Positions 3,598-46,372 of a stretch of DNA of 64,000 nt are shown in pieces. This DNA comes from Flavobacteriaceae bacterium CRH (GTDB taxonomy: Bacteria; Bacteroidota; Bacteroidia; Flavobacteriales; Flavobacteriaceae): the NCBI GenBank assembly GCA_001507425.1, contig LMAJ01000007.1, positions 186,001 to 250,000 on the forward strand. Reading direction: 5' to 3'. The position numbers were made by a program, and so were the translations under genes. Numbering within the stretch: position 1 is the stretch's first letter; each line of letters opens with the position of its first letter. The notes beneath the pieces were generated by a model. The model searched no databases. It saw only the letters and a list, made by a program, of their open reading frames with translations, and was not told the DNA's origin.

Positions 3598-4830
3598 ATG
3601 AAACCTTTAAAAGCAAAAACAGGACTGCCCCGTATTATTTATATTGGAAATGATAAACCAGATTTAAAATCAGCACAATTATTTAATTATGAATCTGATG
3701 ATTTAAGCATCCTGTACTTAAAGAATGATAAAAATATTAATAAGCATATTATTGCATTCAATCCGGATTGTATCATAACAACAGGAAATTCTTGTCTTAA
3801 TTATCAAAATCTAATGAACTTATCATTAGATATAAGAAGAAGATGGATAAATTTACCGGATCCCAAAATAGATGAAATTGGAGAAATCGCTTATCGCTGT
3901 GCGATGAATTATATATTATCAACTCAAACGCATGATTTAATTTCCTTTTTCACGCCAATTTATAATACAGGCGAAACTTTGCTCCGAACTTATGAGTCTG
4001 TAAAAAATCAAACCTATCATAATTGGGAATGGGTAATAGTGAACGATTCTAATGATGATGGAAAAACCTTAAAAATTGCCCAGGATTTGGCAGCAAATGA
4101 TGTAAGGATTAAAGTATATGATTTTAAAGAAAAATCAGGAGGACTAATTGGCGAAGTAAAACATCGCGCTGCCTGTATGTGCACCGGAGATTATCTGGCA
4201 GAATTAGATCATGACGATTACCTGCTGCCAGATTGTGCGTTTAATATTATAGAAGCATTTAAAAAATATCCAGAAGTTGGATTTGTATATTCTGATTGTG
4301 CAGAAGTTGACCAAAACTGGAATTCATTAACTTATCCTAACGGATTTGCTTTTGGATACGGAAAGTATGAAAACCAGTTTGTTATGGGAAGATTGATGAA
4401 AGTTTATATTTCCATGAATATTAATCCAAAAACAATCCGCCATATTGTTGGTGTTCCCAATCATATTCGGGTTTGGAGAAAATCAGTCTATCATCAAATC
4501 GGAGGGCATAACAGAAGATTGTCGATTGCCGATGATTATGAATTATTCGTAAGAACTTTTCTTGCGACCAAATTATTAAGAATTCCCAAAATAAGCTATC
4601 TGCAGTTTATTTATTCTAACGAAAATGCTGCAAATACTCACGACGCAGCCCGGGCAGATATACAGCGAAGAGTTAGGACAATTGCTGCCTTTTATAATGA
4701 AAAAATAAAACAGCGTTTTGAAGAAATGGGTGTCACAGACTGGGCTTATGAAGCAAATCCACTACATCCGATAGGAACCCAAAGCAGGTTTGGAAAAGAA
4801 GAAGGCTATGTAAACCTTATCGATAATTAA
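3598..4830 (+). CDS. Family 2 glycosyltransferase
   Basis: A 410-residue protein with a GT-A domain beginning near residue 117 (ISFFTPIYNTGETLLRTYES, then WEWVIVNDSNDDG). The metal/nucleotide-sugar binding block is LAELDHDDYLLPD, with the acidic cluster DHDD at 204-207. About 115 residues precede the GT domain and do not match a family I recognise. There are no transmembrane segments, so it is probably a cytoplasmic or peripheral sugar transferase. No other polysaccharide genes sit beside it, so donor and acceptor are unknown. A -7-like TATATTTG lies at 3512-3519 without a matching -33 TTG. Confidence 0.85.
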   Translation: MKPLKAKTGLPRIIYIGNDKPDLKSAQLFNYESDDLSILYLKNDKNINKHIIAFNPDCIITTGNSCLNYQNLMNLSLDIRRRWINLPDPKIDEIGEIAYRCAMNYILSTQTHDLISFFTPIYNTGETLLRTYESVKNQTYHNWEWVIVNDSNDDGKTLKIAQDLAANDVRIKVYDFKEKSGGLIGEVKHRAACMCTGDYLAELDHDDYLLPDCAFNIIEAFKKYPEVGFVYSDCAEVDQNWNSLTYPNGFAFGYGKYENQFVMGRLMKVYISMNINPKTIRHIVGVPNHIRVWRKSVYHQIGGHNRRLSIADDYELFVRTFLATKLLRIPKISYLQFIYSNENAANTHDAARADIQRRVRTIAAFYNEKIKQRFEEMGVTDWAYEANPLHPIGTQSRFGKEEGYVNLIDN

Positions 4831-5102: not shown

Positions 5103-8100
5103 ATGAATAAAAAAACAATTCATTTTCTTAAAAAAACACTACGTATACTACTTTGGTGCGTGGGTTCTGTCGTTGCGCTATTATTACTTCTAATTATATT
5201 AATTCAGGTACCGTCAATTCAAAATTATGCTAAGGACAAAGCCGTAAACTACCTTCATAATAAAATTAAAACCAAAGTTTCGCTAGATCATATTTCAATT
5301 AAATTTCCTAAAGATGTAGTTCTTGAAGGTTTTTATTTTGAAGATCAAAACAAAGATACGTTGTTGGCAGGTAAACGATTAGAAGTTGATGTTGATCTTT
5401 TTAAATTGGTTAGCAGCGAACTCGAAATCAATTCAGTTTCGCTGGAAAATGTTAATGCCAATATTTCAAGAAATAAAGATGGCGTTTTCAATTTCGATTA
5501 TATCATAAAAGCTTTCGAATCTAAAGAACCAAAAGTTGTAGATCCTGATAGTAAACCTTTCAAAATATCGGTTGTAAACGTAAATCTTGACAATGTAAAT
5601 TTTAATTTTAAAGATGATTTTGCCAAAAATGATGTAAAGGTAAAATTGACGCATTTTGACACCAAATTCAATAAATTCGATTTAGATAAAATGGATTTCG
5701 ATATTCCGAATATTAATTTAAACGGATTGAAATTGGTTTTGGATCAGGACGCTGTAGAAAAAATTGCTGAAGTTTCTGTTGAAACCGTTGATACCATTTC
5801 GAAACGAAAAGACTTCAAATTAAAATTAGATAAAATAAGTTTATCAAAAATTGATGTTTCTTATGATAATAAAGATTCAAAATTAGATTCAGGAATAAAA
5901 CTGGGGAATTTAGATTTAACAGTAAATGAAATTGATTTAAACAAACAGCTTTTAGATTTTGATTCATTCGAATTAAAAAACTTAAAAGGAAACTTACGTT
6001 TAGGTGCAAAAGACAAAAAACTAAAAACGCCAAGTTTAGATTCTACTTCCATCAAACAAACAGGCTGGAAAGTAAGGCTGAACGATGTTGATATCCAGAA
6101 TATAGCATTCAAATTTGATGATATGCAATCAAAACCAACTCAAAAAGGAATTGATTACAGCCATTTAGATTTGAGCAAATTTAATCTTCAAGCAGATAAA
6201 TTATATTACGGAAACGATACGATTTCAGGAAATATAAAATCGCTTGCCGCAAGTGAAAAACGCGGATTAGAAATACAGTCTTTAAAAACGAATTTCTTTT
6301 ACGGACCTAAAAATGCATCTCTGGAGAATTTATATGTGAGAACGCCTCAAACGCTTTTGCAGAATAAAATAACACTGAAATATGCATCTCTTGCCGCGTT
6401 AAAAAAAGATATTGCAAATCTTGCCATAGACGCCAATTTAAATCAATCAAAAGTTGGGTTTAAAGACATTTTGTTATTTGTTCCGGATTTACAAAACACA
6501 AATCCGTTTAAGGGAAATCCAAATGCGATTTTGTATTTGAATACACGCCTGAACGGCAAAATAAAAGACCTGAATATTCCGTTGTTCGAAATGAGCGGAA
6601 TAGGAACTACAAGAGTTTCCCTTTCGGGGAAAATTACCGGTTTGCCAGATGCCAAAAAAGTGTATTACGATTTAGATATCAAAAAACTTTCAAGCACTTC
6701 AAAAGATGTATATTCTTTTGTGCCGGCAGGAACAATTCCGAAAAACATTCAATTGCCTTCTCAATTTAATTTAATTGGAAAATTTAAAGGTTCGGTTCAG
6801 AATTTTAAAACCAATCTGGCTTTAAACAGTAGTTTCGGAAATGCAAAAGTCGATGCTTTATTTGACCAGCGCGTTAAGAAAAAAGAAAAATACGATGCAA
6901 CAGTTTATTTGCTTGATTTTGATTTAGGAAGGTTGATCAAAAACGATTCTATCGGAAAAATTACGCTTAAAGCGAAAGTTAAAGGAAAAGGTTTAGACCC
7001 GAAAACGGCGCAGGCTGACTTGGACGGAATTGTGCAAAAAGCTGTTTTTAATAAATATACGTACAGAGATTTAGCCTTAAAAGGAAATATCGAAAACGGA
7101 TCTTTTGCCGTAAAATCCGGAATGAAAGACCCTAATTTGAATTTCAATTTAGTAGCGAGCGGAAATACGAAAGACAAATATCCATCAATTAAATTGAAAT
7201 TAAACCTGGATATTGCTGATCTTGAAAAACTAAACCTGCACGCAGGCCCGATGAAATTGCGTGGAAATATCGATGCTGATGTTGCCAACAGTAATCCTAA
7301 TTTTTTAAACGGAAAAGTGTTTCTTTCTAACATTCAGATTTTGCAGGATGCGGAACCAATTGTTTTAGATTCGGTTCGTGTAATTGCTTTTTCAGACAAT
7401 ACGAGAAACAATATCAAAATCTCATCTCAGTTTTTAAAAGCTGAAGTGGACGGAAAATACAAATTGACAACCTTAGTTGCGGCGGTAAAAAAATCGTTGT
7501 CAAAATACATCGACTTAAAAAATCCGAAAGCCAATGGAGAAGCAGACGAACAACGCTTGGCTTTTACATTAACTGTAGATAACGATCCGATTCTGTTTAA
7601 ACTAATTCCGAAACTGACAGGTTTTGAGCCCATTAAAATTACAGGAAAATACAATAATGTTGCCGATTCTTTAGAAATTAAAGGAACGATTCCGAGAATT
7701 ACTTACGGAAATAATACCATTGCAGATGGAAAAATCAATATCGAAGCCAAAGAAAATGCATTAGAATATTTAGTTTCTGTGGCTACAATTGAAAGTGGTT
7801 CATTAAAAGTTCCGTTTACAAGTTTATCCGGAAAAGTCGAAAATAATATACTGACTTACGCGCTTGAAGTTCAGGATGCAAAACAAAAACAACAATATTT
7901 TATTGCCGGAGAATTTAAATCAGAAGACTCTAAAAATATCTTTAAAATAGATGCGGAGAACTTCGTTTTAAATTACGACAAATGGAATGTAGATCCTGAA
8001 AACGCAATTGAATTTGGAGGCAAAAGACTTTATATCAATAAATTTTATTTAGCCAATGGCGGAAACGAATTAAAAATTCAATCGCAAGGCACGCAGGATA

Positions 8101-10190
8101 ATGCGCCTTTGCAAGTTGATTTTGTGAACTTTAAAATTGAGACCATTATGAATATGGTCAAAAAAGATAAATTGTTGATGCAAGGTTTGATCAACGGAAA
8201 TGCCGTGGTCGAAAATGTTATGACAAACCCAACTTTTACATCAGATTTAAAAATAGATGATTTTGCTTTTAGAGGCGAACCCGTTGGTGATATTGCCATA
8301 AAAGTCGATAATAAAACCAATAATTCTCTGGCAGCAAATGTTACGCTTAGCGGAGAAGGAAATGACGTTAACGTAAATGGAAATTACAGAATCAACGACG
8401 GAAATTTAGATTTTAATGTTGATATCAATAAGTTGACGATCAAAAGTATTCAGGGTTTCACAATGGGGAATGTGACCGAAGGAAGCGGAGATTTATCAGG
8501 TAGTTTTAAAATTACAGGAAATGGAAGTGCACCAAAAGTGGCTGGCGAATTAAATTTTAATAATGCAGCTTTTAGAATCAAACAATTGAATTCTTACTTT
8601 AAAACAGATCAGGAAAAAATCACTTTTAATAATGATGTCATAACGTTTGATAAGTTTACACTTAATGACGAAAATGACAATACTTTATATGTTGACGGAA
8701 CTATTCAATCTCCGGATTTTAAAAATTATAATTTCGGTTTAACTGTTGTTGCCAACGATTTTAGAGCCATACATTCTAAAGCAGCAGACAATGATTTATT
8801 TTACGGAGATTTATTTTTAGACACCAAATTAAATATAAAAGGAACATTAGAAAGCCCATTTATTGGTGGAAATATCAAAATAAAAGATGAAACCAAATTC
8901 TCTGTTGTTTTGCCACAATCAGATCCTTCAATCGCTGACAGAGAAGGAATTGTAGAGTTTGTCGATGAAGATAATTTATATCTGAAACAAACGGTTGCGA
9001 TGCAGGAAAAGCTCAATCAATCAGAGTTAAAAGGAATGGATGTAAGTGTTGATATTACAATCGATAAAAATGCAGAACTTACATTAGTTATTGATAAAGG
9101 AAACGGAGATTACCTGAACCTTAAAGGAGAAGCGCAACTTACCGGAGGAATCGATCCTTCTGGAAAAACGACTTTAACGGGTAAATACGAATTTTCAGAA
9201 GGAGCGTATGAAATGAATTTCAATATGATCCGTAGAAAATTCGATATTCAAAAAGGAAGTTATATCATCTGGAATGGCGAACCAACAATGGCAACTTTAA
9301 ATATTACAGCTATTTATAAAGTAGAAACAGCGCCAATCGATTTATTAGGAAATCAATTAGCCGTAAGTCCAACAATTCGAAATACATACAAACAAAAAAT
9401 TCCGTTTCAGACACATTTGAAAATGAAAGGCGAATTGCTGAAACCGGAAATCTCTTTTGATATTGTGCTTCCAGATGGAAATTATGATGTTTCATCAGAT
9501 ATTGTTTCGGCTTCTCAGGCAAAACTAGAGCAATTACGACAAGATCCGGCAGAATTGAACAAACAGGTTTTTGCACTTTTATTATTGAACCGATTTATAG
9601 GTGAAAATCCGTTCGCAAGTGAAAGCGGCGGAACAAGTGCAGAATCATTGGCAAGACAAAGTGTGAGCAAAATATTATCTCAACAATTAAATGATCTTGC
9701 AGGACAATTGGTAAAAGGTGTTGAGTTAGAATTTGACTTAGAATCGACTGATGATTACACGACCGGAACAAGAGAAAACAGAACCGATTTGAATGTTGGT
9801 GTTTCTAAAAAATTGCTTGACGACCGATTAAAAGTAACTGTAGGAAGTAGTTTTGGAGTAGAAGGCCAGGAACGCGCCAACGAAGAAAGCACCAATATTG
9901 CAGGCGACGTTGCGCTGGATTATCAACTTACAAAAGACGGCCGATACATGGTTCGTGCGTATCGTAAAAACGAATATCAGGTTGCGGTAGAAGGACAGGT
10001 TGTTGAGACTGGAGTTGCGTTTATTATTACGATGAGTTACAATAAATTTCGCGAACTTTTTCATCGTAGTGCCGCAGAAAAAGAAATGATTAAAGAAGAA
10101 AAATTGCGCAAAGAAAAACGAAAACTCAAAGAAAAAGAAGAAAAAGAAAAAGAAGAAAATCAAGTTGTTGGAAATGAGCAAAAAACATAA
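5103..10190 (+). CDS. tamB: Translocation and assembly module inner-membrane protein TamB
   Basis: A 1695-residue protein with one N-terminal membrane anchor (about residues 11-33), then a long AsmA-like start (QVPSIQNYAKDKAVNYL) and more than 1300 residues of repetitive beta-strand sequence. It ends in a TamB/DUF490 C-terminal domain (for example SQQLNDLAGQLVKGVELEF and a final barrel-like strand region). The last 45 residues are a Lys/Glu-rich tail (EKEEKEKEE). TamB proteins bridge the periplasm and work with an outer-membrane Omp85 partner in envelope biogenesis. That partner is the next gene, starting about 5 nt after this stop, which supports the call. Two small hairpins (5031-5047 and 5053-5073) precede the start. 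Confidence 0.93.
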   Translation: MNKKTIHFLKKTLRILLWCVGSVVALLLLLIILIQVPSIQNYAKDKAVNYLHNKIKTKVSLDHISIKFPKDVVLEGFYFEDQNKDTLLAGKRLEVDVDLFKLVSSELEINSVSLENVNANISRNKDGVFNFDYIIKAFESKEPKVVDPDSKPFKISVVNVNLDNVNFNFKDDFAKNDVKVKLTHFDTKFNKFDLDKMDFDIPNINLNGLKLVLDQDAVEKIAEVSVETVDTISKRKDFKLKLDKISLSKIDVSYDNKDSKLDSGIKLGNLDLTVNEIDLNKQLLDFDSFELKNLKGNLRLGAKDKKLKTPSLDSTSIKQTGWKVRLNDVDIQNIAFKFDDMQSKPTQKGIDYSHLDLSKFNLQADKLYYGNDTISGNIKSLAASEKRGLEIQSLKTNFFYGPKNASLENLYVRTPQTLLQNKITLKYASLAALKKDIANLAIDANLNQSKVGFKDILLFVPDLQNTNPFKGNPNAILYLNTRLNGKIKDLNIPLFEMSGIGTTRVSLSGKITGLPDAKKVYYDLDIKKLSSTSKDVYSFVPAGTIPKNIQLPSQFNLIGKFKGSVQNFKTNLALNSSFGNAKVDALFDQRVKKKEKYDATVYLLDFDLGRLIKNDSIGKITLKAKVKGKGLDPKTAQADLDGIVQKAVFNKYTYRDLALKGNIENGSFAVKSGMKDPNLNFNLVASGNTKDKYPSIKLKLNLDIADLEKLNLHAGPMKLRGNIDADVANSNPNFLNGKVFLSNIQILQDAEPIVLDSVRVIAFSDNTRNNIKISSQFLKAEVDGKYKLTTLVAAVKKSLSKYIDLKNPKANGEADEQRLAFTLTVDNDPILFKLIPKLTGFEPIKITGKYNNVADSLEIKGTIPRITYGNNTIADGKINIEAKENALEYLVSVATIESGSLKVPFTSLSGKVENNILTYALEVQDAKQKQQYFIAGEFKSEDSKNIFKIDAENFVLNYDKWNVDPENAIEFGGKRLYINKFYLANGGNELKIQSQGTQDNAPLQVDFVNFKIETIMNMVKKDKLLMQGLINGNAVVENVMTNPTFTSDLKIDDFAFRGEPVGDIAIKVDNKTNNSLAANVTLSGEGNDVNVNGNYRINDGNLDFNVDINKLTIKSIQGFTMGNVTEGSGDLSGSFKITGNGSAPKVAGELNFNNAAFRIKQLNSYFKTDQEKITFNNDVITFDKFTLNDENDNTLYVDGTIQSPDFKNYNFGLTVVANDFRAIHSKAADNDLFYGDLFLDTKLNIKGTLESPFIGGNIKIKDETKFSVVLPQSDPSIADREGIVEFVDEDNLYLKQTVAMQEKLNQSELKGMDVSVDITIDKNAELTLVIDKGNGDYLNLKGEAQLTGGIDPSGKTTLTGKYEFSEGAYEMNFNMIRRKFDIQKGSYIIWNGEPTMATLNITAIYKVETAPIDLLGNQLAVSPTIRNTYKQKIPFQTHLKMKGELLKPEISFDIVLPDGNYDVSSDIVSASQAKLEQLRQDPAELNKQVFALLLLNRFIGENPFASESGGTSAESLARQSVSKILSQQLNDLAGQLVKGVELEFDLESTDDYTTGTRENRTDLNVGVSKKLLDDRLKVTVGSSFGVEGQERANEESTNIAGDVALDYQLTKDGRYMVRAYRKNEYQVAVEGQVVETGVAFIITMSYNKFRELFHRSAAEKEMIKEEKLRKEKRKLKEKEEKEKEENQVVGNEQKT

Positions 10191-20178: not shown

Positions 20179-21423
20179 TTATCCGATTAATTGAGTAAAC
20201 AAATCCTGATTGTCATTTAAATATTGAAACTCAAAACCATTTTTGGTCATATTCAATTTGATCGCCATAATATCGCTTTTGTTTTTTAATTCTAAACCGA
20301 CCACTACAGATCCAACTTCGCGGCTGTTTTTCTTCGCAAACTGAAAATATGTGATATCGTCATCCGGCCCTAAAATATTATTTACAAATTCCTTTAAAGC
20401 TCCCGGACGTTGTGGAAACTGAATCATGAAATAATGCATTAAGCCTTCATAAAGTAACGAACGTTCTTTTATTTCAGCAGTTCTTTCGATGTCATTATTA
20501 CTTCCGCTAACAATGCAAACCACATTTTTGCCTTTTATTTTATCCTTGTAAAAATCTAAAGCCGCAATCGTCAAAGCTCCTGCAGGTTCTACAACCATAG
20601 CTTCTTCATTGTATAAACGTAAAATAGTGGTACAAACTTTTCCTTCGGGAACCAGAACAATATCTTCAAGATTGTACCGGCAAATTTCAAAGGTTTTGTC
20701 ACCAACTTGTTTTACTGCAGCTCCATCTACAAATTTGTCGATCGTACTTAAAGCCGTGTTTTTATTTTCTTCAATAGAAGTTTTCATCGAAGGCGCACCT
20801 TTTGGCTCAACGCCAATAATCTTAGTGTTTGGGCTCAAGTGTTTAAAAACTTCAGATAATCCGGAAGCCAGTCCGCCGCCGCCAATTGGAACAAAAACAT
20901 AATCGATTGGTTCTTTAAAACTTTCTAAAATTTCCAGACCAACAGTTCCTTGCCCTGCAATTACTTTTTCATCATCAAAAGGATGAATAAATATTTTATG
21001 ATTTTTGGTGGCGTCTGCCGTTGCAGAGGCGTAAGCATCATCAAACGTATCTCCAATAAGGACAATTTCAACAAATGACTTTCCAAATAATTGCACTTGT
21101 TTTACTTTTTGTTTTGGAGTTGTTTTCGGCATATAAATTTTGCCTCTTATTTGTAAAAGATTGCAGGAATAAGCAACTCCTTGTGCGTGGTTTCCGGCGC
21201 TTGCGCAAACAATTCCGGTTGCTTTTTCTTTTTCATTTAACGAAGAAATCTTGTTGTAAGCGCCTCTGATTTTATACGAACGAACAATTTGTAAATCTTC
21301 CCGTTTCAATAAAATAGTCGATTGAAACTCTTCTGAAAGGTTTAAATTTTGTGTGAGTGGCGTAGCGGCAACTACATTTTCGAGCTGCTTTTTGGCAGCA
21401 ATTACTTCGTTAAATAGATCCAT
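20179..21423 (-). CDS. ilvA: Threonine ammonia-lyase (threonine deaminase) IlvA
   Basis: A 414-residue PLP enzyme that makes 2-oxobutanoate from threonine, the first committed step to isoleucine. The ATG at 21423 is chosen over an upstream in-frame GTG at 21447. PLP-binding Lys51 lies in VRSYKIRGAYN; CASAGNHAQGVA and the glycine-rich PIGGGGLASG complete the cofactor site. A C-terminal ACT-like regulatory region (FMIQFPQRPGALKEFVNNIL) is present, so allosteric control by isoleucine is expected. The gene is preceded on the same strand by an Ile-rich leader peptide and terminator (21521-21674), which implies attenuation as well. No other ilv gene is adjacent. Confidence 0.94.
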   Translation of the reverse strand: MDLFNEVIAAKKQLENVVAATPLTQNLNLSEEFQSTILLKREDLQIVRSYKIRGAYNKISSLNEKEKATGIVCASAGNHAQGVAYSCNLLQIRGKIYMPKTTPKQKVKQVQLFGKSFVEIVLIGDTFDDAYASATADATKNHKIFIHPFDDEKVIAGQGTVGLEILESFKEPIDYVFVPIGGGGLASGLSEVFKHLSPNTKIIGVEPKGAPSMKTSIEENKNTALSTIDKFVDGAAVKQVGDKTFEICRYNLEDIVLVPEGKVCTTILRLYNEEAMVVEPAGALTIAALDFYKDKIKGKNVVCIVSGSNNDIERTAEIKERSLLYEGLMHYFMIQFPQRPGALKEFVNNILGPDDDITYFQFAKKNSREVGSVVVGLELKNKSDIMAIKLNMTKNGFEFQYLNDNQDLFTQLIG

Positions 21424-21520
21424 ATTGTTTGTTTTTATTTTTGCCACAGATTAAATTATTAAAAAGATTTAAATTGTGAACGTCTGAAATCTTTGGCAAA
21501 AAAGCATTTGTTTTAAAATA

Positions 21521-21545
21521 AAAAACCTCCCGATTTGGGAGGTTT
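21521..21545 (-). terminator. Attenuator terminator of ilvA
   Basis: Read on the minus strand: AAACCTCCC, loop AAATC, GGGAGGTTT, then TTTATTTT. The 9-bp stem with six G-C pairs and a U-rich tail lies 98 nt before the ilvA start and 44 nt after the leader-peptide stop. Its 5' arm (ACCTC) can also pair with GAGGT at 21580-21584. It might instead merely terminate the DUF4136 gene, but a promoter and leader frame lie between them. Confidence 0.8.
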
Positions 21546-21579
21546 CATAAAATTGTATTTGTTTACTTATTTATATAAC

Positions 21580-21584
21580 ACCTC
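21580..21584 (-). promoter_or_regulatory. Predicted antiterminator segment of the ilvA leader
   Basis: GAGGT on the minus strand begins 4 nt after the leader-peptide stop and is complementary to ACCTC in the 5' arm of the terminator at 21521-21545. It would be covered by a ribosome that reaches the stop codon and exposed when the ribosome stalls in the isoleucine codons. The pairing is short (5 bp core plus flanking A-U pairs), so this is an inference. Confidence 0.5.
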
Positions 21585-21588
21585 GCCA

Positions 21589-21648
21589 TTATTGCTCAAT
21601 TGCAATAATGTTAATAATAGCGATAATAATGTTATTTAAATTTGTCAT
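21589..21648 (-). CDS. Isoleucine-rich leader peptide upstream of ilvA
   Basis: A 19-codon frame reading MTNLNNIIIAIINIIAIEQ then TAA. Eight of 19 residues are isoleucine, in runs of three, two, two and one. It sits 43 nt upstream of a strong terminator and 165 nt upstream of ilvA, which makes the isoleucine precursor. No alternative function is suggested by its sequence other than a short hydrophobic peptide. The composition, position and downstream hairpin together match classical ribosome-mediated attenuation leaders. A perfect -7 promoter element lies 19-26 nt upstream of the ATG. There is no Shine-Dalgarno, as usual in this group. Confidence 0.75.
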   Translation of the reverse strand: MTNLNNIIIAIINIIAIEQ

Positions 21649-21666
21649 TTTTTCTCTGTTGAAAAA

Positions 21667-21674
21667 CAAATGTA
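21667..21674 (-). promoter_or_regulatory. -7 promoter element of the ilvA leader
   Basis: TACATTTG on the minus strand is an exact match to the Bacteroidota -7 consensus TAnnTTTG. Transcription would begin around 21660, leaving about 12 nt before the leader-peptide ATG. No clear -33 TTG is present at the usual distance. It starts 5 nt after the DUF4136 stop. Confidence 0.6.
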
Positions 21675-21678
21675 TCAA

Positions 21679-22218
21679 TTATTTTTTAACCGGAGGATAT
21701 TGCGCCAAAACTTTGTTTACAATTTCTTGTACTCTTGCGTCTTTTTTATCGACGTTTTTAGTTAAAGTTGCAACACCTTCGCCTTGCCAGATCATTTCTT
21801 TCTTTTTGGCATCGATTAAATCAATAAATAAAGTTCCTTCTGTAGATGTCGAAACCGTAGTTTGGTTTCCTCCATACATCATATACGGATTCCATCCCCA
21901 ACCCCAACCGTAGCCCCATCCGGCGCTAAATTGATTTACGTTTACTTGTTCTCTCGATTTAGTAAAAATGTTTACTAATAAATCAGGATTTTCGCTTTTG
22001 GTAAAACCTTTGGCTTGTAATTCAGTGTCTATGGCGTGAAGAATTCTTCTTTTATCCAAATCAGAAATTTCGACTTTATCAATTCCCGGCTTAAAAAAAG
22101 CATACGTTTTATAAGGCGTAAAATCTACGTTTTTGTCGTAATCAGAATAAACACTAACAGTGCTGCAAGAGGCTAGTATCAAAAGCAAAAAAACGGGTAC
22201 TAATTTGAATGTTTTCAT
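21679..22218 (-). CDS. DUF4136 domain lipoprotein
   Basis: A 179-residue protein. The start at 22218 opens a lipoprotein signal peptide with lipobox LASC (FLLLILASCSTVSVY); an upstream in-frame start at 22257 would add 13 residues before it. The sequence VYSDYDKNVDFTPYKTYAF and the C-terminal LFIDLIDAKKKEMIWQGEGVATL are typical of DUF4136 proteins. A Gly/Trp-rich loop (GWGYGWGWGWNPYMMYGG) occupies the middle. Envelope location is expected; function unknown. It is followed directly by the promoter of the ilvA leader. Confidence 0.85.
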   Translation of the reverse strand: MKTFKLVPVFLLLILASCSTVSVYSDYDKNVDFTPYKTYAFFKPGIDKVEISDLDKRRILHAIDTELQAKGFTKSENPDLLVNIFTKSREQVNVNQFSAGWGYGWGWGWNPYMMYGGNQTTVSTSTEGTLFIDLIDAKKKEMIWQGEGVATLTKNVDKKDARVQEIVNKVLAQYPPVKK

Positions 22219-22264
22219 ATTTATAAATGTTAAATGTTCTTGGTTCTTTGATGACAATTGTGTA

Positions 22265-24241
22265 CTAAAATAAACTTTCGTCTACCATATTAGGTAAAGT
22301 TACTTTTAATAAAGGCTGAACTTCCATCGCCCTTTTTATAGCAAAAATAGCTTCGTCATTTCTGGCCCAGCTTCGTCTTGAAATTCCGTTGTTTACATCC
22401 CAGAAAAGCATTGACGCTAAACGCTTTGAAGCCTCTTTAGAACCATCAAGAACCATACCAAAACCACCGTTAATTACCTCTCCCCAGCCAACTCCTCCGC
22501 CATTATGAATGGATACCCAGGTTGCACCTCTAAAACTGTCTCCAATGACGTTTTGAATCGCCATATCTGCCGTAAAACGAGATCCGTCATAAATGTTAGA
22601 AGTCTCTCTGTAAGGAGAATCAGTTCCCGAAACGTCATGGTGATCGCGGCCTAAAACTACAGTTCCAATTTCACCTTTTGCAATCGCTTGGTTAAAAGCT
22701 TCGGCAATTTTAATTCTTCCTTCTGCATCGGCATAAAGAATTCTGGCTTGCGAACCTACAACCAATTTATTTTCCTGTGCGCCTTTTATCCATTTGATAT
22801 TGTCCTGCATTTGCTGTTGAATTTCATTTGGAGCTGTTTTTGCCAATTCTTCTAAAACCTGACTTGCAATAGTATCTGTTTTTTGTAAATCTTCCGGTTT
22901 CCCAGAGGTACAAACCCATCTAAAAGGTCCAAAACCGTAATCGAAACACATTGGCCCCATAATATCCTGAACATAACTCGGATATTTAAAATCGATATTA
23001 TTTTCTGCCATTACATCCGCACCGGCGCGTGAAGCTTCGAGTAAAAATGCATTTCCGTAATCGAAAAAGTAAGTTCCTTTTGCCGTATGTTTATTAATTG
23101 CTTTGGCTTGTCGACGTAAAGATTCCTGAACTTTTTCTTTAAATAATTCCGGATTATTGGCCATCATTTCATTGGCTTCTTCAAAAGAAATTCCAACCGG
23201 ATAATAACCTCCAGCCCAAGGATTATGAAGCGAAGTCTGATCTGAACCTAAATCAATTTTGATGTTTTCTTTGTCGAAACATTCCCAAACATCAACCACA
23301 TTTCCTAAATAAGCAATCGAAACAACTTCTTTATTGGCTTTCGCCGAATGGACTCTCTTAACCAATTCTTCTGTCGAAGTCACGATTTCATTAATCCAGC
23401 CTTGTTCGTGACGAATTTTAGTGATTTTCGGATTTACTTCGGCGCAGACCGTAATACAACCGGCAATATTTCCGGCTTTTGGCTGTGCGCCTGACATTCC
23501 GCCAAGACCTGAAGTTACGAATAAATTCCCTTCAGGATTTAATTTTATTTTTCTGAAACCATTCAAAACCGTGATCGTAGTTCCGTGTACAATTCCCTGT
23601 GGGCCAATATACATATAACTTCCTGCCGTCATTTGTCCGTATTGAGAAACGCCTAAAGCATTCATTTTTTCCCAATCGTCCGGTTTGGAATAATTTGGGA
23701 TTACCATTCCGTTGGTAACCACAACTCTTGGCGCTTCAGAATGCGAAGGAAATAATCCCATCGGATGTCCAGAATACATCGTTAAAGTCTGCTCATCTGT
23801 CATTTCAGACAAATATTGCATCGTTAATAAATATTGTGCCCAGTTCTGAAAAACAGCGCCGTTTCCGCCATAGGTAATCAATTCATGCGGATGCTGCGCC
23901 ACGGCATAATCCAGATTGTTCTGAATCATATGCATAATCGCTTTTGCCTGCACTGATTTTCCCGGATATTCGTCAATTGGTCGTGCGTACATTTTGTAAT
24001 CAGGACGCAAACGGTACATATAAATACGACCGTAAGTTTCTAATTCTTCTGAAAATTCTTTAATTAATTCCGCGTGATGTTTGGCTTCGAAATAACGTAA
24101 TGCATTTTTTAAAGCCAGTTTTTTTTCTTCTGCCGAAAGAATTTCTTTTCGTTTTGGCGCGTGGTTAATCGCTAAATCGTATGCTGCCTTTGGAGGCAAT
24201 GTTGATGGGATTCCTTGTTGTATTTGTTCTTTGAAAGTCAT
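22265..24241 (-). CDS. hutU: Urocanate hydratase
   Basis: A 658-residue enzyme converting urocanate to imidazolone propionate in histidine degradation, using bound NAD+. Family blocks are clear: HELITYGGNGAVFQNWAQ, YSGHPMGLFPSH, MTAGSYMYIGPQGIVHGT, TSGLGGMSGAQPKA and VGRDHHDVSGTDSPYRET-like sequence near residue 540. The classical enzyme has about 555 residues; this is the longer form with about 100 extra residues, mainly N-terminal and internal. No hutH, hutI or hutG gene is adjacent, so the pathway is split in this genome or incomplete. The gene is separated from DUF4136 by 46 nt and might form a unit with it. Confidence 0.95.
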   Translation of the reverse strand: MTFKEQIQQGIPSTLPPKAAYDLAINHAPKRKEILSAEEKKLALKNALRYFEAKHHAELIKEFSEELETYGRIYMYRLRPDYKMYARPIDEYPGKSVQAKAIMHMIQNNLDYAVAQHPHELITYGGNGAVFQNWAQYLLTMQYLSEMTDEQTLTMYSGHPMGLFPSHSEAPRVVVTNGMVIPNYSKPDDWEKMNALGVSQYGQMTAGSYMYIGPQGIVHGTTITVLNGFRKIKLNPEGNLFVTSGLGGMSGAQPKAGNIAGCITVCAEVNPKITKIRHEQGWINEIVTSTEELVKRVHSAKANKEVVSIAYLGNVVDVWECFDKENIKIDLGSDQTSLHNPWAGGYYPVGISFEEANEMMANNPELFKEKVQESLRRQAKAINKHTAKGTYFFDYGNAFLLEASRAGADVMAENNIDFKYPSYVQDIMGPMCFDYGFGPFRWVCTSGKPEDLQKTDTIASQVLEELAKTAPNEIQQQMQDNIKWIKGAQENKLVVGSQARILYADAEGRIKIAEAFNQAIAKGEIGTVVLGRDHHDVSGTDSPYRETSNIYDGSRFTADMAIQNVIGDSFRGATWVSIHNGGGVGWGEVINGGFGMVLDGSKEASKRLASMLFWDVNNGISRRSWARNDEAIFAIKRAMEVQPLLKVTLPNMVDESLF

Positions 24242-44842: not shown

Positions 44843-46318
44843 ATGAAATCAAATTATATAAAACAGATATTCTTTGCAATATCGATGTTAGTACTCACTT
44901 CTTGTTCGGATGATTTTTTAGATAAAACACCTACTGAATTTGTTGATTATGAAGGTGCTACTAAAACTACTGAAAATTTAATGACCCTTTTAAATGGTAT
45001 ACACAGATCATTGTATATTAGATATGAGTCTAACCAAAATGAAAATGGATTAGGAAGTTTAATGGAACAAGTGGATATTGCAGGAGATGATCTTGTATAT
45101 CCTGTTTCAAATGCATGGTTTTTGCAAGTTTACAACTGGAATGGTATAGCTAATGAAAATTCTCAGGATATAAGATTTCCTTACAGAACGTATTACAGAA
45201 TAATAAGAAATGCTAATACGATATTAGAAACTGTTGATGCTGCTACCGGTTCTGATGCTGATAAAAAGATATTGAAAGGTCAGGCTTTGCTTTACAGAGC
45301 TTTTTGCCATTATCAATTAGTTCAGTTATTTGGAAAAAGATATGTTAATGGTGTAGATAATACACAATTAGGAGTGCCTTTAATTTTGACAGTTGGTAAT
45401 GAACAATTTCCTCGTTCTACAGTTGAAGAAGTGTATACTCAAATTAATAAGGATATAGACGAAGCAAATATTTTATTAGTAGGTTATACAAAACCAAACA
45501 ATTCTCATTTAGGTTTAAAAGTTGGCCAAGGTTTAAAAGCTAGAGTAGCGCTAACACAAGGGAATTGGGCTATTGCTGCAGATTATGCTGCGCAGGCTAA
45601 AGCAGGAATAGCATTAATGACTGTAGAACAGTACAAAAAAGGTTTTAATGACTTTACTGCAGCAGAATGGATGTGGGGAAGCCATATTAATGAAGTACAA
45701 ACAGATTACTTTGGTAATTTCGGAGCATACATGTCTAGAAATTATAATTCAACTGTTATTCGTTCTTGTCCAAAAGCAATTAACAGCAAGCTTTATAACC
45801 TGATTCCAACAACTGATGTACGTTCAACTTTATTTGATAAAACAGGTCTTCATACTGCATTGAATCTTCCTTCAAATTATTCTAAATATCCTTACACAAG
45901 TCAGAAATTTTTATCAATAAGTACTGGAGATAGTAGATGTGATGTTCCTTATATGCGTGTTGCAGAAATGTATCTTATAGAAGCAGAAGCTAAAGCAAGA
46001 TTAGGATTAGCAGATGCAAATACAATTCTTTTTACTTTAGTATCAGCAAGAAATCCTTCTTATGTATTGTCTGCAAATACAGGACAAGCATTAGTGGATG
46101 AGATTTGGTTTCAAAGAAGAATTGAATTATGGGGAGAAGGATTTAGATTCTATGACTTAAAGAGAACTAATTCTCCTCTTGACAGAACTGGAGCTAATCA
46201 TAATTCAACAATTACAAACGGAGTTTTAAGTGTTCCTGCAACAGATAAAAGATGGCAATGGTTAATTCCTAGAGCTGAAATTAATGCTAACCCATTAGTT
46301 GTTCAAAATGAGCTTTAG
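44843..46318 (+). CDS. SusD/RagB-family outer-membrane lipoprotein
   Basis: A 491-residue lipoprotein with lipobox LTSC and Cys21, followed by SDDFLDKTPTEF, the canonical SusD start. Helical TPR-like region RAFCHYQLVQLFGKRYV, and the C-terminal FWFQRRIELWGEGFRFYDLKR-like block (residues about 415-440), typify SusD. The acidic SDD after Cys fits surface export. It acts as the substrate-binding lid over SusC. Separated from susC by 11 nt, followed by a terminator, so the two form a two-gene operon. Confidence 0.95.
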   Translation: MKSNYIKQIFFAISMLVLTSCSDDFLDKTPTEFVDYEGATKTTENLMTLLNGIHRSLYIRYESNQNENGLGSLMEQVDIAGDDLVYPVSNAWFLQVYNWNGIANENSQDIRFPYRTYYRIIRNANTILETVDAATGSDADKKILKGQALLYRAFCHYQLVQLFGKRYVNGVDNTQLGVPLILTVGNEQFPRSTVEEVYTQINKDIDEANILLVGYTKPNNSHLGLKVGQGLKARVALTQGNWAIAADYAAQAKAGIALMTVEQYKKGFNDFTAAEWMWGSHINEVQTDYFGNFGAYMSRNYNSTVIRSCPKAINSKLYNLIPTTDVRSTLFDKTGLHTALNLPSNYSKYPYTSQKFLSISTGDSRCDVPYMRVAEMYLIEAEAKARLGLADANTILFTLVSARNPSYVLSANTGQALVDEIWFQRRIELWGEGFRFYDLKRTNSPLDRTGANHNSTITNGVLSVPATDKRWQWLIPRAEINANPLVVQNEL

Positions 46319-46341
46319 TAATTTTTGCTAAAATAATACAG

Positions 46342-46372
46342 AAACTGCCCAAAATATTGGGCAGTTTTTTTA
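46342..46372 (+). terminator. Terminator of the susCD operon
   Basis: AAACTGCCC / GGGCAGTTT with an 8-nt loop, then a T-run. Confidence 0.9.

Follow-up and report, generated by a model that had tools for sequence, protein, structure and literature searches.

Leader-peptide attenuation is a textbook control device, and the ilvGMEDA, trp and his operons of Escherichia coli are governed by attenuators of this kind. Little of it has been described in the phylum considered here; a comparative study by Lopatovskaya et al. from 2010, cited in PMC4833913, may cover Bacteroidetes. The ilvB-II motif of Corynebacterium and the ilvB-OMG motif contain an upstream frame rich in branched-chain codons for which attenuation has been proposed, and the ilvB-II motif has been studied with reporters (PMC10272879). 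Within Flavobacterium itself, one sentence of a 2021 study of F. psychrophilum reads structured 5' regions as leader-peptide attenuators and reports 'strong clues' for such control upstream of amino-acid operons (PMC9723704); the main text of that paper contains no word starting with 'ilv'. The 5' UTRs of B. thetaiotaomicron include small frames described as reminiscent of leader peptides (PMC7366714), and the Bacteroid-trp RNA (RF01692; PMC2864571) is another cis-regulatory RNA of Bacteroidetes, which its name links to tryptophan genes. Among the matches listed from open-licence PMC papers, we found none that describes a leader at a Flavobacterium ilvA gene.

The leader described here lies ahead of ilvA, is conserved across the genus and, judging from sequence comparison, is very probably a transcription attenuator of the ribosome-mediated type, sensing how much charged Ile-tRNA is available. 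It shares with the E. coli ilvGMEDA, trp and his leaders a frame of end-product codons, mutually exclusive helices and an intrinsic terminator ahead of the first structural gene. Compared with ilvGMEDA, a likeness of organization rather than of aligned sequence, Flavobacterium differs in having an Ile-only leader for ilvA alone and a separate Ile/Val leader before ilvD-B-N-C, and in a putative leader promoter of the Bacteroidota type. The ilvB-II and ilvB-OMG motifs differ in their mixed branched-chain codons and in their position ahead of ilvB (PMC10272879). The parts of the leader are given below by their positions in the window, by which we mean the whole 64,000-nucleotide stretch of DNA that was analysed.

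21667..21674, minus strand: -7 promoter element TACATTTG, consensus TAnnTTTG
21589..21648, minus strand: leader frame MTNLNNIIIAIINIIAIEQ with its stop codon, 19 codons of which 8 are Ile
21602..21634, minus strand: region 1, the Asn and Ile codons, which form the 5' side of the hairpin in the leader (RNAalifold consensus)
21564..21595, minus strand: region 2, the last leader codon, the stop codon and GGCGAGGUGUUAUAUAAAU with its continuation
21587-21569, minus strand: motif GGCGAGGUGUUAUAUAAAU
21584-21580, minus strand: GAGGU, 4 nt past the leader stop
21539..21557, minus strand: region 3, the 3' side of the antiterminator, with ACCUC at its end
21520..21545, minus strand: intrinsic terminator (3:4), AAACCUCCC-AAAUC-GGGAGGUUU-UUU
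21545-21537 and 21531-21523, minus strand: terminator stem arms AAACCUCCC and GGGAGGUUU, followed by a U run
20182..21423, minus strand: ilvA, biosynthetic threonine ammonia-lyase, the presumed regulated gene (stop codon at 20179-20181)

The frame runs on the minus strand from an ATG at 21648 to a TAA at 21591-21589, the terminator stem starts 43 nt past that stop, and the whole block spans 251 to 97 nt ahead of the ilvA ATG (21423), with a probable transcript start near 21662. An initial annotation of this DNA had pointed out the -7 element, the 19-codon frame with its 8 Ile codons, the GAGGU 4 nt and the terminator 43 nt beyond the stop, and a threonine deaminase gene downstream; every one of these parts is present as it had described them, confirmed at base level. 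The enzyme is biosynthetic threonine ammonia-lyase by HMM, with 629 bits to NCBIfam NF006390 (cut-off 421) and 615 bits to TIGR02079 (cut-off 441), Pfam domains PALP and Thr_dehydrat_C, and no second close copy in its own genome, where the next match has 25% identity. The window has 519 ATG frames that are 12-30 codons long, and of these the leader frame ranks first in Ile count, the runner-up having 7. The leader RNA is predicted to fold into two main hairpins, one joining the leader codons to region 2 and the other the terminator, at -35.9 kcal/mol compared with -16.6 +/- 3.2 in shuffles (z = -6.1); the terminator by itself reaches -15.5 kcal/mol (z = -4.9). In the spacer between terminator and ilvA lies an imperfect palindrome, TTTTTTGCCAAAGATTT ... 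AATCTGTGGCAAAAA (window 21503-21438, minus strand); elements ending in GCCAC/GTGGC like it occur by a crude pattern in 52 of 85 such spacers, are absent from the others and resemble a mobile repeat.

Regions 1 to 4 form a set of mutually exclusive predicted pairings (1:2, 2:3 and 3:4). With RNAalifold on 53 diverse sequences (alignment A1), the whole RNA yields the leader hairpin and the terminator, and the RNA without the 3' arm of the terminator yields the antiterminator between regions 2 and 3; region 2 can thus pair with either region 1 or region 3, and region 3 overlaps the 5' arm of the terminator. These structures derive from the same sequences that are used in the counts below, and the shuffles with which the counts are compared do not preserve the relatedness of the sequences. 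In the 1:2 hairpin, 94.0% of cells are paired and there are 15 double-change cells (shuffle mean 4.0), but further pair types are no more numerous than shuffles give (21 and 20.6), and 9-12 of the 53 sequences break the pairing at four of its pairs. The 2:3 antiterminator has 93.6% of cells paired over 14 pairs, a figure that falls to 35-55% when one side is slid by 1-3 columns. Its covariation does not exceed shuffles, at 4 double-change cells compared with 2.8 (142 of 500 shuffles reach it), because GAGGU and ACCUC hardly vary, so the case for 2:3 rests on the paired cells, the slide control and the switch model described below. The terminator has 99.0% of cells paired and, with little variation and one double-change cell, also shows no covariation above shuffles. 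In divergent species, as read from the alignment, region 2 has GGAG instead, which would shift the register of the pairing by one base. As to the covariation of frame and terminator/antiterminator that the initial annotation had proposed to look for, the leader hairpin has double changes, whereas the antiterminator is nearly invariant and has none beyond shuffles. The GAGGU/ACCUC pairing it had noticed is indeed present, but as the base of the predicted 14-pair antiterminator, the rest of which it had left out, and a third structure, in which the leader codons pair with region 2, lies beyond its account.

These pairings suggest the following switch. Transcription would start just upstream, and a ribosome would begin the 19-codon leader. 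With Ile-tRNA plentiful, the ribosome would reach the stop codon and cover GGCGAGGU, leaving region 3 to fold with region 4, and transcription would halt ahead of ilvA. When Ile-tRNA is short, the ribosome would stall on an Ile codon and open 1:2, and the freed region 2 could pair with region 3 as it emerges, so that no terminator forms and ilvA is transcribed. Were the leader not translated at all, 1:2 and 3:4 would form together and transcription would again stop. We examined this geometry with a model in which the ribosome covers the RNA to 15 nt past the first P-site base (an assumed footprint) and the free RNA is folded to the end of region 3, a calculation of geometry and free energy rather than of kinetics. 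Across 85 ilvA leaders, 2:3 forms in a fraction of 0.99-1.00 wherever the A site lies between the third codon and the codon two short of the stop. That share drops to 6% when the A site is one codon short of the stop and to 0 of 85 when it holds the stop codon; in the fold free of ribosomes, 1:2 and the terminator form in 85 of 85. The last Ile of the common leaders stands three codons before the stop. In the model, then, the Ile codons are placed such that stalling there, and not at the stop, would free region 2. From these features we infer a translated leader on which ribosomes stall, a polymerase coupled to the ribosome, and a response to isoleucine.

The distribution of the leader in the genus follows the context of the gene. 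IlvA protein matches at E <= 1e-80 occur in 54 of 121 Flavobacterium genomes, 50 of which were covered (G116, G104, G031 and G118 being left out). An Ile-rich leader lies at most 500 nt upstream of ilvA at 33 of these 50 loci and farther upstream, ahead of one extra reading frame, at four more (L034, L035, L116, L118). At nine of the remaining 13, ilvA sits behind a gene taken to be ilvC (from an HMM check in L125 and L131, from C-termini in the others) with no leader directly upstream; at L032 it sits behind ilvB-ilvN, again with no leader directly upstream, and L126 is at a contig end. With these loci set aside, there are 39 ilvA copies that belong to no ilv operon and are uncut by contig ends; 37 of them have the leader, which in L122 is degenerate. 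The real exceptions are L009, which has no leader, and L120, in which the frame is gone and the terminator directly follows the lipoprotein gene; F. araucananum, apparently one genome represented by both L009 and L039, has neither leader nor terminator. Among 80 named loci, a set that shares genomes with the 50, the leader is found within 500 nt at 77 and farther upstream at L107, while L100 is cut by a contig end and L039 is without it. It is also present in F. johnsoniae strain CI04 (L057). In three of the loci with Ile leaders (L034, L118 and L189), ilvA comes next after a small protein resembling the regulatory subunit of acetolactate synthase, and such a protein also follows the leader in L202; the likeness is by Pfam in L034 (below cut-off) and L202 and by eye in L118 and L189, and the extra frame at the matching place in L035 matched no Pfam family.

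Comparison with relatives, on which the initial annotation had in part staked its reading, finds the frame, the 2:3 pairing, the terminator and the -7 element all kept across the genus. The block from leader to terminator is held while the spacer from terminator to ilvA varies from 11 to 223 nt (85 loci). TAnnTTTG, the consensus placed at -12 to -5 in PMC9723704, starts 24-30 nt ahead of the leader ATG in all 85 distinct leaders, compared with 1.5% of shuffled upstream 45-mers. We did not find a good -33 element: 24 of the 85 leaders have TTG at the spacing expected for it, versus 11% in shuffles, and in PMC6847099 too this element is called 'much less evident'. An A at -3, which favours initiation in F. 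johnsoniae (PMC6847099), is found in 74% of leaders; A at -6, -12 and -13 occurs in 29, 38 and 29%, below the 41% background.

The peptide appears to be under selection as a peptide. Among the 85 leaders distinct in DNA there are 51 distinct peptides, and 653 of the 1489 residues after Met1 are Ile, a composition that is biased because each leader was chosen as the most Ile-rich frame with at least 5 Ile. The ratio pN/pS is 0.31 in frame for 36 distinct 19-codon leaders (7.1 and 0.51 in the other two frames) and 0.42 in frame for 26 distinct 18-codon leaders (1.3 and 0.94 in the other two); these are raw pairwise proportions that ignore kinship, taken from loci with IlvA identity >88% only, and pairing constraints also shape them. 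Of the eight Ile codons in the 19-codon leaders, three (codons 7, 8 and 12) show synonymous change; at codon 12, 24 of 49 leaders have ATT and 22 have ATC, with Ile kept in 46. Codons 9, 11, 14, 15 and 17 show none; codon 9 is ATC in 49 of 49, and its C pairs within the leader hairpin.

IlvA serves the synthesis of isoleucine only, while IlvD, IlvB, IlvN and IlvC serve both isoleucine and valine, and the codons of the leaders divide in the same way. Within the genus, 85 ilvA leaders have 653 Ile to 8 Val and 28 ilvD leaders have 147 Ile to 135 Val, every one of the 28 with at least 3 Val, though some of these peptides are identical. A Fisher value on this comparison ignores relatedness, so our argument rests neither on it nor on the composition of leaders picked for Ile. 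The gene ilvD is present in all 38 genomes asked, and 38 loci from 37 genomes were examined (G014, at a contig edge, being left out). A leader stands directly ahead of ilvD at 28 of the 38; at nine of the other ten an ilvE-like gene precedes ilvD (confirmed by HMM in L328 only), and at L327 we found no leader at ilvD. Eight of the nine ilvE loci have leader-terminator units ahead of ilvE, L333 having none. In the footprint model, 27 ilvD leaders leave the antiterminator free in at least 96% until the ribosome is eight codons from the stop, in 85% at seven, in 37% at six and in none at the stop. The genome that carries the window has such a leader of its own (L166), the Ile/Val-rich MQISIIITSVVVVNVFSTSAQGMV at 8826-8752 on the minus strand, with a terminator, ahead of an HMM-checked ilvD; the genes that come after ilvD look, by eye, like ilvB, ilvN and ilvC. 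These comparisons suggest that leader codon content follows the end products of the downstream genes, and this, together with the conservation and the biosynthetic nature of IlvA, supports the reading as an attenuator that the initial annotation had put forward.

The leader might instead be regulatory with no stalling at Ile codons, for example if UGUUAUAUAAAUAAGU were a site for a protein or if the frame acted in another way. Region 2 and its A/U-rich continuation look, in an alignment inspected by eye, more conserved than pairing would need; another action of the frame is suspected for the ilvB and leuA leaders of Actinobacteria; and in Streptomyces coelicolor, replacement of the candidate codons of a similar-looking ilvB leader left regulation unchanged, as reported in PMC1262725. 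Set against this, much of the conserved stretch serves two competing pairings, the terminator is unmistakable and codon identity tracks the product of the pathway, so that we regard this alternative as improbable. A second alternative, to which we give still less weight, is that the hairpin merely terminates the upstream lipoprotein gene (21679-22257) and that the Ile-rich frame arose by chance in AT-rich DNA. The terminator does follow the lipoprotein gene on the same strand, AUU codons may come cheaply in such DNA, and L120 keeps a terminator there with its frame lost; however, the frame, region 2 and the -7 element are kept between the gene and the terminator in 85 distinct sequences, the leader accompanies 37 of 39 ilvA genes outside operons, and ahead of ilvD the codons shift to Ile plus Val. 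Control of ilvA by a T-box, a riboswitch or another described RNA family is hardly credible, as no Rfam family reaches its gathering score in 21000-22300, where the top score is 28.6 bits for Phe_leader; the sub-threshold matches also include Thr_leader at 21.9 (gathering 55), and these two families are themselves leader-peptide attenuators. The Bacteroid-trp RNA goes unmatched in this region even with E allowed up to 5.

Outside Flavobacterium, a covariance model built on the ilvA leader (R1) picks up Ile/Val leaders that precede ilvD or ilvE; they occur in other genera and, at L190-L192, in a second family of the order. A loose search with R1 matches 214 of 299 genomes at E <= 0.1, which is not a count of leaders. 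Thirty loci taken from it include 24 with a branched-chain leader ahead of ilvD or ilvE, two ilvA leaders (G000, G060), two Asn leaders, one Met/Cys leader (L162) and one locus, L164, with no leader; their genes were named by eye from N-termini, with HMM checks for L166, L328, L170, L171, L185 and L294. Among further loci, L194 and L196-L201 have no recognisable leader. Two weak R1 matches in the window itself, at 46258-46371 and 2394-2476, look like plain terminators and were discarded. Twenty-nine genomes from outside the genus were selected for an ilv leader or ilvE already located in them. In 28, ilvA is 5.8-7.5 kb farther downstream with contig and strand unchanged, and in G199 it is on another contig. 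The operon form therefore looks the commoner one outside this Flavobacterium clade, and the lone ilvA with its own Ile-only leader looks derived, a polarity read from these counts rather than from a tree.

In some of these genomes the units are stacked. Serial leader-terminator units occur at 14 ilvD/ilvE loci: at five of the nine Flavobacterium ilvE loci (L328, with three units, L329, L330, L335 and L336), at L147, L173, L175, L176 and L181 by detector among 30 loci outside (one of which, L195, is a pheA locus), at L156 by eye, and at L338, L339 and L341 of five others. The four ilvA loci with an extra frame (L034, L035, L116, L118) have serial units as well. In five of the 14 serial ilvD/ilvE loci (L328, L330, L176, L338 and L341), the downstream units are without any Val codon, and L328, L176 and L338 have three units ahead of ilvE, a mixed Ile/Val unit and then two without Val. 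We had expected Ile-only second units to accompany ilvA in the operon, an expectation that holds only in part, at least two units being found at just 5 of the 30 detector loci. The closest described parallel is the Salmonella mgtCBR leader, where tandem attenuators respond to ATP and proline signals and which PMC3641672 calls a 'singular example'; it resembles the serial ilv units of these relatives in having two leader frames in series for different signals, and it differs from the ilvA leader of the window, which is single. The least ordinary parts of the system are these serial attenuators and the way codon content tracks the location of ilvA.

Leaders rich in other codons were seen along the way. 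The genome of the window has a His-rich leader MISIQLHHHHFHYCSQAMC with a terminator about 318 nt ahead of a HisG match (L211), and leaders with at least 4 His occur at 16 of 17 hisG loci. Around its met gene cluster (L294) are three Met/Cys-containing leader candidates with terminators, at 3673, 4009 and 7452 on the plus strand, for example MKTVANKMMVCCMMQMCIPNLLLPKVKE ahead of O-acetylhomoserine sulfhydrylase, in a region that also contains a SAM riboswitch (8084-8192). In other genera, L185 and L162 have Met-rich leaders, MKKVMYNMSMMMWKISAEDSIV and MKKQTTNMACMMCKEIYAKAIIV (minus strand), with terminators, followed by an O-acetylhomoserine sulfhydrylase gene in L185 (HMM-checked) and by a similar one, by eye, in L162. 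Asn-rich leaders with a terminator, such as MINNNNNNNFNNPNF, occur in L153, L160 and L171, that of L171 ahead of gatC- and gatA-like genes (GatC just over the Pfam cut-off, GatA at 435 bits, under the NCBIfam cut-off of 481). We know of no Met- or Asn-codon attenuators from elsewhere. Phe/Tyr-rich leaders with terminators stand ahead of pheA in L170, L195, L222, L226, L232, L233 and L235-L237; the detector finds such a leader at 7 of 17 pheA loci and finds none at the pheA locus of the window's own genome (L225), nor any Thr leader ahead of thrA in eight loci. Rfam run on eight other loci reports SAM and SAM-II riboswitches only.

We lean, by a narrow margin of belief, towards a broader reading in which Flavobacteriales use ribosome-mediated attenuation as a modular sensor of amino-acid supply, with units of Ile codons at ilvA, Ile/Val at ilvD or ilvE, His at hisG, Phe/Tyr at pheA, Met/Cys at sulfhydrylases of methionine synthesis and Asn at gatC- and gatA-like genes. 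The modules would be stacked in some ilv operons, where read-through would need stalling in every unit because they stand in series, and when ilvA left the operon in one Flavobacterium clade, it would have come to be accompanied by an Ile-only unit. Were this so, it would imply tight coupling of transcription and translation in a phylum whose translation initiation is not that of the textbook.

The interest of the leader lies in its phylum, in codon content that tracks gene content and in the serial units of relatives. Ile-only leaders at ilvA and Ile/Val leaders at the shared enzymes amount to a natural experiment on what leaders sense. Ribosomes of this class are reported not to recognise Shine-Dalgarno sequences (PMC9976891), and RNA-seq and ribosome profiling have been published for F. 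johnsoniae (PMC6847099). A conserved leader of this kind in Flavobacterium would offer a direct test of ribosome-polymerase coupling in that class.
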